Source: Halobacillus hunanensis
GTDB lineage: Bacteria > Bacillota > Bacilli > Bacillales > Halobacillaceae
Direction of reading: 5' to 3'
Length of the DNA: 64,000 nucleotides
Assembly (NCBI RefSeq): GCF_900166655.1
Contig: NZ_FVZB01000006.1
Span: 1,116,001 to 1,180,000 of the forward strand
In this document: positions 6,936 to 11,302 of the stretch, one piece after another
Position numbering within the stretch: position 1 is the first letter of the stretch
How the letters are laid out: each line of letters opens with the position of its first letter
Program-made: the position numbers and the translations under genes
The notes under the pieces: model-generated
Seen by the model: only the letters and a program-made list of their open reading frames with translations
Databases searched by the model: none
What the model was told of the DNA's origin: nothing

Positions 6936-8786
6936 TTATGATGTGATTTTTTCAGAGGTTTCGTTTCCAAACTGACTGTTGTAAAGCTCAGCATAGAAAC
7001 CGTCTTTCGCTAACAGTTCATCATGTGCTCCTTGCTCGATCACACTGCCTTTATCCATAACGAGAATTGTATCTGCGTCCTTAATCGTGGAAAGTCTGTG
7101 AGCAATGATGAAGCTTGTTCTCCCTTCCATTAATTCACTCATGGCCTGCTGAATATGGCTTTCTGTTCTTGTATCCACACTGCTGGTAGCTTCATCTAAC
7201 ACAAGGATTGCAGGGTCCGTAATGATCGCACGAGCAATAGTAAGCAATTGCTTCTGACCTTGTGATATATTGGATGCTTCTTCATTCAGAACCGTATCGT
7301 AACCTTCAGGGAGTGTCCGAATAAAGTAATCAGCATGTGCGGCTTCAGCTGCTTGAATAACCTCGCCTTCAGTGGCATTTTCGCGACCGTAGGCTATATT
7401 ATCTCGTATCGTCCCATTGAAGAGCCACGTATCCTGGAGCACCATGCCAAATAGGCTGCGCAACTCCCCTCGTTTTACATCGCGTATGTCTACACCATCG
7501 ATTGTAATTTTGCCTTTGTCTATTTCATAAAAACGCATCAATAGATTGATCAGTGTTGTCTTTCCGGCTCCAGTCGGCCCTACAATCGCTACTTTTTGGC
7601 CTTGCTCTACGTTTACTGTCATTTCTTTAATCAGCTGGGAATCCTTTTGATAGCCAAAATCAACACTTTGAAAACTAACGGAGCCGTTTGCAGATGGCAT
7701 CGACTTCACATTCGCCGATACCCATTCTTCCTCATCGTCAAGAATTTCAAAAACACGTTCAGCTGATGCAACCGTTGATTGAATGACATTTGCTATGCTG
7801 GAAACTTGAGTAATCGGTTGGGAAAACTGTCTAATATATTGGATAAATGCTTGGATTCCGCCGACTCCGATCACTCCCCTTGTAACTAACAGAGCACCAA
7901 TTACACAAATGAATACATAAACAATATTATTTACAAATTTTAAAATTGGCTTAATCAGACCGGAAATAAATTGTGCTTTCCAGCCTGTTTGATAAAGGCT
8001 CTCGTTCATTTTCTTAAATCGGTCAATAGACTGATCCTCACGACCGAACGCCTTGATCACCTGATGCCCTGAAAACATTTCCTCTACGTGGCCGTTCAAT
8101 TGTCCAAGGGCTTTTCGCTGGCCTATGAAATAGTTCTGTGAACGTACAGCCACTTTCTTTGTTATGATAAAACTTATCGGTAAGGTTATAAAAACAATCG
8201 CAGTCATTAACGGACTAATGGTAAGCATCATCACCGCAACACCAACTAATGTTACGATGGATGTAATGAACTGTGTAAGACTTTTTTGCAGTGTGCTGCT
8301 GATATTCTCCAGATCATTAACAGCACGACTTAATAGGTCGCCATGTGTTCGTGAATCAAAATATTGAAGCGGGAGACGGGAGAGTTTTTCGTTTACTTCT
8401 TCACGGATGGTATAGACGGTCTTTTGCGCAACGCTCGCCATAATATACTGTTGAATGTAGCTGAATAGGACACTCAAAAGGTATAGCACACCTAAAATAA
8501 TCAAAGCTGCCTGAATAAACTCAAAGTCAACCCTGGCATTTTGAATGCCGTACCTCTTCATCACCGTGGATTGAAATAAACCCGTTGTAATCATTCCAAT
8601 GATTTTAGGGCTGAGAATGGCAAAAATTGTGCTGAGGACAGCCGTTACAAGCACGTTCAGCAATGGTACTCTATGAGGTTTCAGGTAGCCGATCAGTCTT
8701 TTTAATGTTCCTTTAAAATCTCTGACCTTTTGCTCTTGCTTACCTTTGCGACGGTTTCTTTGCTGTTTTTGACGCTTTTCGCTCAT
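6936..8786 (-). CDS. Heterodimeric ABC exporter, catalytically intact half (YfiC-like)
   Basis: A 616-residue fused permease-ATPase. A long basic N-terminal tail precedes six predicted membrane segments (about residues 40-330), then the nucleotide-binding domain. The ATPase has Walker A GPTGAGKTT, signature ISQGQ, Walker B ILVLDEATSSVD with the catalytic glutamate, and switch histidine IAHRLSTI. It overlaps the partner gene by four bases (ATGA), so the two are co-translated. The partner has degenerate catalytic residues, which marks an asymmetric heterodimer of the YfiBC/BmrCD/TM287-288 kind. Substrate is unknown; such pumps export drugs, lipids or peptides. The four small peptide genes upstream on the same strand suggest one possible cargo. 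Confidence 0.88.
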   Translation of the reverse strand: MSEKRQKQQRNRRKGKQEQKVRDFKGTLKRLIGYLKPHRVPLLNVLVTAVLSTIFAILSPKIIGMITTGLFQSTVMKRYGIQNARVDFEFIQAALIILGVLYLLSVLFSYIQQYIMASVAQKTVYTIREEVNEKLSRLPLQYFDSRTHGDLLSRAVNDLENISSTLQKSLTQFITSIVTLVGVAVMMLTISPLMTAIVFITLPISFIITKKVAVRSQNYFIGQRKALGQLNGHVEEMFSGHQVIKAFGREDQSIDRFKKMNESLYQTGWKAQFISGLIKPILKFVNNIVYVFICVIGALLVTRGVIGVGGIQAFIQYIRQFSQPITQVSSIANVIQSTVASAERVFEILDDEEEWVSANVKSMPSANGSVSFQSVDFGYQKDSQLIKEMTVNVEQGQKVAIVGPTGAGKTTLINLLMRFYEIDKGKITIDGVDIRDVKRGELRSLFGMVLQDTWLFNGTIRDNIAYGRENATEGEVIQAAEAAHADYFIRTLPEGYDTVLNEEASNISQGQKQLLTIARAIITDPAILVLDEATSSVDTRTESHIQQAMSELMEGRTSFIIAHRLSTIKDADTILVMDKGSVIEQGAHDELLAKDGFYAELYNSQFGNETSEKITS

Positions 8787-10510
8787 GCCGTTTCCCCCTC
8801 TGACAACTGGGATGATACAATCTCCTGGTAGACTTCACAGTTTTCCATTAACTCTCGGTGTGTTCCAACGCCTGCCATTTCTCCGTGATCTAAAACAATA
8901 ATCTGGTCTGCATCCATAACTGTACTGATCCTTTGAGCAACAATGAATACGGTGGCTTCAGATGTCTCCTGTTGAAGGGATGCACGCAGCTTAGCATCGG
9001 TTTTAAAGTCAAGTGCTGAAAAACTATCATCAAATATATAGATATTAGCTTCTCTTATTAGAGCGCGGGCGATGGAAAGGCGCTGTTTCTGTCCACCCGA
9101 GACGTTTGCCCCTTTTTGAGCGATAACAGAGTCAAAGCCGTTCTTCGTCTCTAAAATAAAGTCTGATACTAGGGCGTCATCCGCTGCCTTCCTTACCTCT
9201 TCATCTGTCGCGTTTTTCTTTCCATAGCGAATATTATCTGCAATAGTTCCCGAGAAAAGAACTGCTTTTTGAGGGACTAAACTGATGTTATTTCTCAAAT
9301 TACTCTGCAATATGTCACGTGTATCGACACCATCTATCTTGATGCTGCCCCGATCAACATCATAGAATCTTGGGAGCAGGTTAATAAGTGTCGATTTTCC
9401 AGCTCCAGTGCCCCCTACAATAGCTGTTACCTGTCCTGGCTTGGCAGAGAATGAAAGGTTTGAAAGGACAGGCTCTTCAGCTCCCGGATAACTGAACGTT
9501 ACATGATCAAAGTCCACAACTCCCTCTAGCAAGTGTTCATCTTTATCACCAACCGGATCCTTCACATCAGGAACTTTATCGAGTACCTCGTTAATCCTGG
9601 CGGCTGAGACCGAGGCGCGGGGAATCATGATGAGCATCATCGATGACATAATTAAGGAAAACATGATTTGCATGGCATACTGAATAAAGGCCATTAATTC
9701 ACCGACTTGAAGGTTTTCATTACTGATTCGAATACTGCCGAACCATATAATCGCAATGATTGAAAAGTTAAGAACAAACATCATGACCGGTGTTAACGTT
9801 GCCATAATCTTGTTAACTTTAATTGCCGTGTTTGCAAAATCTAAGTTTGCTTCTTTAAAACGATTCTGTTCATGATCAGTGCGATTAAAAGAACGAATAA
9901 CCCTAATGCCGTTCAGCCCTTCCCGAAGTACGAGATTCATTCGATCCAACTTCTTCTGCAATGCTTTAAAAAGCGGGAGTCCTTTTTTGGCCACAACGAT
10001 AATCGCAGCAACTATGATAGGAATAACCGCGATAATAATCAATGACATAGCCGCGTCTGTAGCAATAGCTATAAGGATTCCCCCAATAAACATCATCGGA
10101 GCCATAATCAAGACTTTCAGCATCATTGTCAGCACTTGCTGAACTTGCATAATATCATTGGTCGTCCTAGTAATAAGCGAGGAAGACCCAACATTATCAA
10201 ATCCTTGCAGCGAGAAATTTTCAATATGTGTAAACATTCTTTCACGAACAACATTTCCAAATCCCATGGACACTTTCGAAGAATAGAATCCTGCCAAGAT
10301 CGAAACAACCACACCCCCTGCAGCCACCAACAACATGAGGCCGCCTATCTTAACAATATAGGAAATGTTACCATTCACGATCCCTTTATCCACAATATTC
10401 GCCATTAAGGCAGGAAGAAAGAGCTGAGATAAGGCTTGAAAAAGTGTTAGCACCAAAATAACTATGATAGGGATGCGATAGGGCTTTAAATATTTGAACA
10501 ATTTCATCAT
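8783..10510 (-). CDS. Heterodimeric ABC exporter, degenerate half (YfiB-like)
   Basis: A 575-residue permease-ATPase and first gene of the exporter pair, starting at ATG 10510 after GGAGGTGATG. Six membrane segments occupy about the first 300 residues. The ATPase keeps Walker A (GGTGAGKST) and a canonical signature (VSGGQKQR). The catalytic glutamate after Walker B is aspartate (IFDDSFSALD), and the switch histidine is glutamine (IVAQRISTV). These changes are the hallmark of the non-hydrolysing site in heterodimeric exporters, so it should not work alone. A terminator at 10580-10609 separates it from the peptide array upstream. Partial read-through or a weak promoter in 10511-10580 would drive it. 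Confidence 0.88.
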   Translation of the reverse strand: MMKLFKYLKPYRIPIIVILVLTLFQALSQLFLPALMANIVDKGIVNGNISYIVKIGGLMLLVAAGGVVVSILAGFYSSKVSMGFGNVVRERMFTHIENFSLQGFDNVGSSSLITRTTNDIMQVQQVLTMMLKVLIMAPMMFIGGILIAIATDAAMSLIIIAVIPIIVAAIIVVAKKGLPLFKALQKKLDRMNLVLREGLNGIRVIRSFNRTDHEQNRFKEANLDFANTAIKVNKIMATLTPVMMFVLNFSIIAIIWFGSIRISNENLQVGELMAFIQYAMQIMFSLIMSSMMLIMIPRASVSAARINEVLDKVPDVKDPVGDKDEHLLEGVVDFDHVTFSYPGAEEPVLSNLSFSAKPGQVTAIVGGTGAGKSTLINLLPRFYDVDRGSIKIDGVDTRDILQSNLRNNISLVPQKAVLFSGTIADNIRYGKKNATDEEVRKAADDALVSDFILETKNGFDSVIAQKGANVSGGQKQRLSIARALIREANIYIFDDSFSALDFKTDAKLRASLQQETSEATVFIVAQRISTVMDADQIIVLDHGEMAGVGTHRELMENCEVYQEIVSSQLSEGETA

Positions 10511-10579: not shown

Positions 10580-10609
10580 AAAAAGCCGAGGTGAAGTGAT
10601 TCACCCCGG
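10580..10609 (-). terminator. Terminator after the peptide array
   Basis: On the minus strand CCGGGGTGA pairs with TCACCTCGG across a six-base loop (10586-10609), and six T residues follow. It closes the transcript of the four peptide genes about 70 bases before the exporter start codon. Confidence 0.8.
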
Positions 10610-10652: not shown

Positions 10653-10745
10653 TTAAAGTAAGCTATCAAGGTCCAAGTCAACATTGCCAGAATCGTTCAC
10701 GCTTCCATTAGCAATATCGCTTAAGATTTGTGTTACGTCTAACAT
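10653..10745 (-). CDS. 30-residue acidic peptide, array copy 1 (promoter-distal)
   Basis: An exact 30-codon frame from ATG 10745 with GGAGGTGACATT before it. The peptide begins MLDVTQILSD and ends DLDLDSLL. It has six aspartates and no lysine, arginine, histidine, cysteine or aromatic residue (net charge about -6). It is identical to copy 2 over the first 23 residues although the DNA differs at ten synonymous positions there. That is strong evidence of selection on the protein. It is the last gene of the array, before a terminator and the ABC exporter. I recognise no family, and a function is not inferred from sequence. Confidence 0.8.
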   Translation of the reverse strand: MLDVTQILSDIANGSVNDSGNVDLDLDSLL

Positions 10746-10746
10746 A

Positions 10747-10956
10747 ATGTCACCTCCAATGGCTTTTTATTTCTTATTCATTACGAATATGCCTTATAGC
10801 AAATCGCTGATGTCTGCATCAACATTGCCAGAGTCGTTGACACTACCGTTAGCAATGTCGCTCAAAATCTGTGTTACGTCTAACATGATGTCACCTCCAA
10901 TGGCTTTTTATTTCTTATTCATTACGAATATGCCTTATAGCAAATCGCTGATGTCT
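10747..10956. repeat. Exact 69-bp direct repeat with 141-bp period in the peptide array
   Basis: Positions 10747-10815 and 10888-10956 are identical over 69 bp. Each block spans a ribosome site, the intergenic spacer and the 3' end of the next peptide gene. The coding cores on either side differ at many synonymous sites, so the spacer block has been homogenised more recently than the gene cores. Confidence 0.85.
10794..10886 (-). CDS. 30-residue acidic peptide, array copy 2
   Basis: 30 codons from ATG 10886 with GGAGGTGACATC before it. The start is MLDVTQILSD, the shared core is NGSVNDSGNV and the end is DADISDLL. Net charge is about -6, with no basic, cysteine or aromatic residues. The stop codon, the following spacer and the ribosome site of copy 1 fall in a 69-bp block repeated exactly 141 bp away between copies 3 and 2. 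No signal peptide or double-glycine leader is evident; the N-terminal half could form an amphipathic helix. Confidence 0.8.
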   Translation of the reverse strand: MLDVTQILSDIANGSVNDSGNVDADISDLL

Positions 10957-11027
10957 AAATCAACATTGCCAGAGTCATTGACACTGCCGTTTAGAATGTC
11001 GCTTAAAATTTGTGTTGAATCAAACAT
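10935..11027 (-). CDS. 30-residue acidic peptide, array copy 3
   Basis: 30 codons from ATG 11027 with GGAGGTGACACC before it. The start is MFDSTQILSD, the core is NGSVNDSGNV and the end is DLDISDLL. It differs from copies 1-2 at residues 2 and 4 and has L12 instead of A12, shared with copy 4. It carries the only aromatic residue in the set (F2). The C-terminal codons are identical to those of copy 2, which points to recent duplication or gene conversion of that block. Confidence 0.8.
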   Translation of the reverse strand: MFDSTQILSDILNGSVNDSGNVDLDISDLL

Positions 11028-11140
11028 GGTGTCACCTCCCATGGCACAAGTTTTTTGTTCTCAAAAGGAACAACAGTACACTGTCCTAAGATAGAATTAA
11101 TTATAAACATATACCCTATTCATGGATTCATAGGTAAGTG

Positions 11141-11233
11141 TTATAGCAAGTCACTGATATCCACACCAACATTTCCGGAATCGTTGACACTGCCGTTTAG
11201 AATGTCGCTTAGAATTTGCGTAATATCTTGCAC
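11141..11233 (-). CDS. 30-residue acidic peptide, array copy 4 (promoter-proximal)
   Basis: 30 codons from a GTG at 11233 with GGGAGGTGAGAC before it. The start is MQDITQILSD, the core is NGSVNDSGNV and the end is GVDISDLL (net charge about -5). It is the most diverged copy and is separated from copy 3 by a longer 113-base spacer that holds a TATAAT-like element at 11100-11105. All four copies keep exactly 30 codons, residues 5-11 and 13-22, D25 and the final LL. Confidence 0.78.
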   Translation of the reverse strand: MQDITQILSDILNGSVNDSGNVGVDISDLL

Positions 11234-11302
11234 TGTCTCACCTCCCTTACCTTTCTACATACAGCTATCGAATCAAATAGACAATTGGATCACTTTTTTT
11301 AA

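Follow-up and report, generated by a model that had tools for sequence, protein, structure and literature searches.

Four very short reading frames lie in tandem before an ABC exporter in the window, the 64,000-nucleotide stretch of Halobacillus hunanensis DNA analysed here, and they raise the question of whether frames of this size are genes and, if so, what their peptides do. Each frame is 30 codons and a stop on the minus strand between 10653 and 11233: copy 1 at 11141..11233 (GTG start, VQDITQILSDILNGSVNDSGNVGVDISDLL), copy 2 at 10935..11027 (MFDSTQILSDILNGSVNDSGNVDLDISDLL), copy 3 at 10794..10886 (MLDVTQILSDIANGSVNDSGNVDADISDLL), and copy 4 at 10653..10745 (MLDVTQILSDIANGSVNDSGNVDLDLDSLL), with start-to-start spacings of 206, 141, and 141 bases. 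All four have a GGAGGTGA-type ribosome site directly 5' of the frame; the ORF tool began copy 2 at an ATG further upstream, for 35 aa, and its ribosome site supports the 30-aa start. We re-found the coordinates and sites given in the earlier note, and the segments that it listed as common to the copies (TQILSDI, NGSVNDSGNV, and the terminal LL) are exact. Its count of ten synonymous differences over residues 1-23 is exact for the two lowest copies (10794 and 10653), whose peptides are identical there.

At the level of coding sequence, a search of the genome gave only four peptide matches, all in the window array, and found no further copy. Nei-Gojobori dN/dS, with start codons skipped, was 0.06 for three copy pairs of the window and a relative (G008) taken as orthologues, and 0.09-0.23 within six arrays. 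These calculations used 7 of 11 copies in L065, 6 of 7 in L066, 10 of 12 in L077, and 6 of 7 in L082; synonymous sites were saturated within the window and L082 arrays, which gave no within-array ratio. The first copies of the window and G008 are mutual best partners that differ by two silent changes and one replacement, and so are the last copies, with eight silent changes and one replacement. Thus, the purifying selection suspected from the synonymous differences is also seen in a codon-substitution test. Since the own-genome matches are these four, homologous arrays occur in other genera, and dN/dS is low, the frames are not chance, and comparison across genomes confirms the array as genuine selected peptide genes.

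The homologous short frames expected in relatives were recovered in other genera. Intact copies occur in 14 genomes of the order, with 2 (Scopulibacillus L193) to 12 (Geomicrobium sp. JCM 19039) copies per array and members of 28-30 aa, counted from the start that follows the ribosome site. A profile search found intact arrays in 6 of 397 order genomes: H. hunanensis itself (G000), Geomicrobium sediminis (G077), Bacillaceae bacterium JMAK1 (G270), Lentibacillus sediminis (G212), Peribacillus cavernae (G247), and G233. A search of 100 relatives added the G008 array, and a pattern scan of named genomes returned 13 stretches. Besides G008 and G233, the further array genomes are Lentibacillus jeotgali, L. 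kapialis, Alkalicoccobacillus porphyridii, Shouchella shacheensis, Scopulibacillus darangshiensis, and Geomicrobium sp. JCM 19038 and JCM 19039. By NCBI taxonomy, both Geomicrobium and Scopulibacillus belong to Caryophanales (Bacillales under the older name), and Scopulibacillus to Sporolactobacillaceae within it.

Weaker matches were taken as chance: partial ones in 9 of the 17 matching genomes among the 397 (E 0.01-0.07), those of G002, G080, and G081 among the 100 relatives (E 0.05-0.74), and, beyond the own genome, a single 15-residue partial match in G450 with no array among 398 phylum genomes. Among 299 class genomes, the matches other than G000 and G077 were partial, with E above 0.001, and searches of plasmids, phages, and viral contigs gave no peptide match. 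Two members depart from the common form: the first copy in L066 is strongly diverged in sequence, and one in L. jeotgali has 48 aa with a doubled second half. In the latter (L070:6710-6855), NDSANDSGNxDVDVSDxL stands twice, which suggests that the second half is a unit of its own. In two Geomicrobium loci (L026, L077), parts of the array alternate MLDL... and MNDI... peptides, as if a two-gene unit had been duplicated.

The peptides appear to form a new family, and searches of Pfam, NCBIfam, PHROGs, and PDB gave no convincing relative, in line with the earlier note, which had recognised none. With 42 members scanned, Pfam gave a single one-member match (BON, E 0.046), NCBIfam none, and PHROGs five one-member matches at E 0.16 or worse. 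The four window copies alone had no match in Pfam or NCBIfam, nor had the one copy scanned with PADLOC. The best PDB match, an anti-CRISPR at E 0.52 over 14 residues, was taken as chance. We found no literature on this array or regulon among open-licence papers.

Across 42 aligned members, D3, T5, Q6, and L8 are invariant and I7, D10, L12, N13, S15, N17, S19, N21, and D25 nearly so, and the net charge is -4 to -7 in all 42. The composition described earlier (no K, R, H, E, C, W, or Y and five to six Asp) holds for the window copies, whereas in relatives Glu is common and K, H, and Y occur rarely; a diverged copy in L066 carries several K and R. Residues 2-13 follow an amphipathic helix pattern, equalled in 16 of 2000 column shuffles, and residues 13-28 alternate hydrophobic and polar positions, equalled in 7 of 2000; both tests were devised after the pattern was seen, and they are two of 13 segment/angle combinations, the strongest for their segments. 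The AlphaFold model of the monomer has a helix at residues 4-18 and no strand (pLDDT 70), so the strand-like tail is a pattern in the sequence only. A length of 30 aa leaves no room for a signal peptide.

The exporter follows the array on the same strand. Subunit A (8783..10510, minus strand, 575 aa) has a degenerate pair of FDDS as Walker B and Q in the switch loop, and a VSGGQ signature; subunit B (6936..8786, minus strand, 616 aa) has LDEA as Walker B, H in the switch loop, and a degenerate ISQGQ signature. Pfam ABC_membrane and ABC_tran domains are present in both subunits, and the degenerate motifs are complementary, which makes visible the asymmetry claimed for this two-gene exporter. 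The subunits match the two chains of TM287/288 (PDB 3qf4) at E 3e-148 and 1e-171, and the best PDB match of both is 8wcw. Judged by their motifs, the two subunits are an ordinary heterodimeric exporter with one degenerate site. As in TM287/288, the degenerate motifs of the heterodimer complement each other; unlike TM287/288, the exporter here goes with a peptide array and an ECF promoter.

That link recurs. An exporter lies 3' of an array on the same strand in 14 of 14 array genomes, with only subunit A within the fetched stretch of Shouchella, and with the link made to the last copy in A. porphyridii and JCM 19038, whose arrays are split by contig ends. In a tree of 43 subunit-A proteins (L026, L075, and L082 as partial rows), the 14 array exporters form one clade with support 100/99. 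The remaining 29 are array-less by the peptide searches, and these rows are the exporters returned as loci, not every genome with a match. Thus, the proposed recurrence of the array beside the exporter was borne out by synteny as well as by the clade, and we consider it a strong inference that the pump exports the peptides. A 15th array, of three copies (Scopulibacillus L081), has no adjacent exporter and a gene of another kind behind it. The nearest relative of the clade (95/84) is an array-less second exporter of the same Scopulibacillus genome, preceded by a MarR gene. Inspection by eye of 10 loci of array-less exporter relatives (50-58% identity; at L129 the upstream sequence spans only 307 bases) showed no other small-frame arrays 5' of the exporter. 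A MarR gene lies upstream in 3 of these 10 loci and also in L196.

Between array and exporter lies a predicted intrinsic terminator (10586..10609, minus strand), a 10-pair stem followed by CTTTTTTC (z -3.7). By eye, a similar hairpin and T-run stand at the same place in L025, L026, L065, L067, L081, and L193. A terminator in this position fits the production of much peptide and little pump. Three observations concern the layout of single loci. The gap between terminator and exporter is widened in G008 by about 0.5 kb of inserted DNA (L025:5600-6150), and there the UPF0158 gene 5' of the array is split into two frames (L025:7375-7727). In G. sediminis, subunit A is in two frames owing to a stop or frameshift (L026:4419-6144) and is whole in the sister JMAK1.

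Upstream, the arrays have a block in common, composed of GTGATCCAA, 14 bases, and CGWTAGC. In the window, it is an ECF-type promoter (AAAAGTGATCCAA-N14-CGATAGCT; 11263..11297, minus strand) 29 bases before copy 1. A fixed-spacer scan placed this promoter within 250 bases of the first copy at 12 of 14 loci, the window included. The spacer is of 15 bases in L. sediminis, the promoter precedes copies 2 and 3 and not copy 1 in Shouchella, and it is also present in Scopulibacillus L193. The earlier note did not contain this promoter, which ties the array to a regulon of sigma/anti-sigma, sortase, and surface-protein genes.

Scanning the H. hunanensis genome for the 35-base match with up to 3 mismatches gave five sites vs. 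0 for a reversed-pattern control. One lies before the array and two before surface-protein genes, the first of which has a class F-like sortase gene behind it. The other two precede another sortase gene of this kind and the gene pair for an ECF sigma factor and its zf-HC2/RskA_C anti-sigma. The site has 0 mismatches at the array and 1 before the sigma operon, and sites before the sigma gene were also found in G003, G006, G007, G008, and G010. It is a strong inference that the ECF sigma drives the array via this shared promoter type, and this particular sigma probably is the one that uses it.

Both sortases pass the Pfam Sortase cut-off, and their best match is the NCBIfam class F sortase model, under its cut-off (145-148 vs. 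166). The surface proteins end in a DMPKTGMGG-type signal (MPKTG), which we read as a probable sortase signal because of its form and the neighbouring sortase; those scanned matched no family in Pfam or NCBIfam above cut-off. One surface protein was modelled as all-helical at pLDDT 54.9. Proteins of this kind, about 445 aa long and with an MPKTG-type end, are found at L087:3223-4569, at L125:4980-6314, and in relatives, with one low-confidence model, all-helical. The second sortase and its ECF site are on a 90-kb contig (L089, G000:C3) that, by eye, has a resolvase-like gene and is possibly a plasmid.

Over 18 genomes, we counted 52 promoter sites vs. 5 control matches, with none in G002. After these sites, 24 of 27 stretches hold sigma/anti-sigma genes, proteins with MPKTG or MPQTG ends (two of them CHRD-type), or sortases; most were recognised by eye, and two genes, one of them CHRD-type, were run on Pfam. 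The genes in two other stretches (L168, L186) are unrelated, and the sites there seem to be chance matches. The last, in G007 (L175:261-632), encodes a secreted, very acidic protein of 124 aa behind a 2-mismatch ECF site. It has a signal-peptide-like start, ends in LLSDIL, and might stand in for the array in this array-less species of the same genus. Parts of the regulon are present in the array-less genus members G001, G003-G007, and G010.

The anti-sigma with an adjoining sigma gene was found in 13 of 13 array genomes tested (all but JCM 19038). At E 1e-20, the anti-sigma is matched in 146 of the 397 order genomes, sometimes over its outer domain only. All 6 array genomes of the order sample are among the 146, with a chance probability of 0.002 if the genomes were independent, which they are not quite. 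Intact arrays occur in only 6 of the 397, and by these counts the array is optional: the surface system works without it. The L. sediminis locus has surface protein, sortase, array, and exporter side by side. Seven loci have, 5' of the array, a separate protein that matches the C-terminal FN3-like domain of the own-genome sortase (Pfam fn3 match for one of them at E 9e-5, under cut-off), and L065 has a whole sortase with the FN3-like domain upstream of its array. Taken together, the genes, the regulon, and the exporter link are well supported by these genome comparisons.

Two genomes of one genus, which count as one case, seem to hold relics. G337 and G394 have no anti-sigma match at E 1e-4, their best exporter is only 40% identical, and each has one peptide-like frame, the weak copy of the profile search. 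One of these frames has an internal stop; the other is open, departs from the invariant residues near the start, and has no clear ribosome site. Such decay is expected if the peptides need the exporter or the sigma.

The gene family, its selection, the common promoter, regulon membership, and co-inheritance with the exporter are read directly from the genomes, and on this basis we propose that the array encodes leaderless exported peptides of a sortase-organised surface under an ECF sigma. An envelope signal would release the sigma from its RskA-type zinc-finger anti-sigma, and the sigma would then transcribe its own operon, the class F-like sortases, the MPKTG-type surface proteins, and the array from one promoter type. 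With a strong ribosome site for each, several copies would amount to bulk production. Most transcripts would end at the terminator past the last copy and the remainder would read into the exporter, and the dedicated heterodimeric pump would move the peptides out as they are synthesised. Once outside, they may assemble at the sortase-anchored proteins, on them or close by, and contribute to a surface layer or matrix. We hold this whole explanation tentatively and judge its chance of being right to be slightly short of even.

The last step is the less firmly grounded one. That the peptides are structural material of the cell surface is suggested by their company (sortase and anchored proteins), their copy number, and their conservation across genera; conservation would equally fit a ligand with a conserved receptor, and we regard the structural role as a fair possibility that is somewhat more apt to be wrong than right. 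The earlier list of signal, toxin, surface-active, or metal-binding peptides is narrowed towards the cell surface by the ECF regulon, without proof. A more specific form of the structural reading is a self-assembling coat, in which the helical start and the alternating Asn/Ser/Asp-hydrophobic tail would polymerise into fibres or a layer, nucleated by the sortase-anchored proteins and switched on by one ECF sigma/RskA pair; we find it possible and rather doubtful.

Other roles for the same peptides have to be weighed against the structural one. They could be exported pheromones by which cells signal their density or the condition of the envelope, perhaps sensed by RskA through its outer domain, with feedback on the ECF regulon. 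Short peptides exported by ABC transporters are common signals, and the sigma whose regulon includes the array has an anti-sigma in the membrane. However, up to 12 similar copies suit a bulk product better, the sigma system works without the array in 140 of the 146 anti-sigma genomes (apparently the same sample), and we noticed no co-inherited receptor on informal inspection; a signal is therefore unlikely in our judgement. A role as extracellular polyanion, with acidic peptides in bulk taking up cations (Ca2+, Na+, metals) or protons at the cell wall of a halophile or alkaliphile and no ordered assembly, appears about equally unlikely. It would account for the acidity of all 42 aligned members and their near absence of basic residues. 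Several host genera are halophilic or alkaliphilic (Lentibacillus, Geomicrobium, Shouchella, Alkalicoccobacillus), and the secreted acidic 124-aa protein at the 2-mismatch site of the array-less sister species points the same way. Against it, a pure polyanion would have no need of the invariant D3, T5, Q6, and L8 or the N-x-S-x-N-x-S ladder.

In aureocin A70 and garvicin KS, several short leaderless peptides are encoded in tandem together with an ABC transporter, and this resemblance makes a leaderless multi-peptide bacteriocin or cannibalism-type toxin conceivable, with the exporter for secretion and immunity. The descent of the array exporters from a group with several members behind MarR regulators, as drug pumps often are, would agree with it. 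Those bacteriocins are cationic, whereas the peptides here have a charge of -4 to -7 and are conserved across genera rather than diversified; no recurring extra gene was seen as an immunity candidate, and the array is regulated together with sortase and wall proteins. We consider it quite improbable. Least credible of all is that the frames encode leader peptides of a transcription attenuator acting on the exporter, the arrangement known for bmrB and bmrCD in Bacillus subtilis. The order of short frames, terminator, and heterodimeric ABC exporter would suit it, but arrays have 2-12 whole copies under selection at the amino-acid level, and the L081 array has promoter and terminator with no exporter behind.

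Among known systems, two resemble the proposed surface role. Phenol-soluble modulins (PSMs) of Staphylococcus are several short signal-less amphipathic peptides with a dedicated four-component ABC transporter, Pmt, and can form amyloid-like fibrils in biofilm (PMC5052566). The array peptides are short too, with a predicted amphipathic helix at residues 2-13 and no room for a signal peptide, and they are linked to an ABC exporter by synteny and clade. They differ in having a fused-domain heterodimeric exporter and an ECF promoter, and in being acidic and nearly lysine-free; curated models in Pfam and NCBIfam gave no sign of PSM kinship for the 42 members. Chaplins of Streptomyces have signal peptides, the general secretion route, and class E sortases, whereas the array peptides are leaderless, have an ABC pump and a class F-like sortase, and are unrelated in sequence. 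The array hosts are presumably unicellular rods, unlike Streptomyces. The likeness to chaplins is one of working plan, not homology: a sigma with a neighbouring anti-sigma, a sortase, and MPKTG-ended proteins here, and, in Streptomyces, ECF sigma BldN with anti-sigma RsbN and small coat proteins, of which the long chaplins are sortase-anchored and the short ones secreted (PMC4255298). No chaplin model in Pfam or NCBIfam matched the 42 members, which are too short for signal plus domain. Thus, membership in chaplins or PSMs is not supported by the sequences.

Annotation easily misses genes this short, and the family has no credible model in the libraries tried. It is accompanied by a clear promoter, a sigma-factor candidate, an export pump, and enzymes for wall anchoring, which makes its function directly testable. 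If the proposed explanation holds, it would show a leaderless peptide export module that can be added to a sortase-based surface programme. It also proposes an output for a type of sigma/anti-sigma pair whose anti-sigma is matched at E 1e-20 in 146 of the 397 order genomes. Should the self-assembling coat prove true, unicellular relatives of Bacillus would have their own, independent equivalent of the chaplin coat, one that uses an ABC pump.
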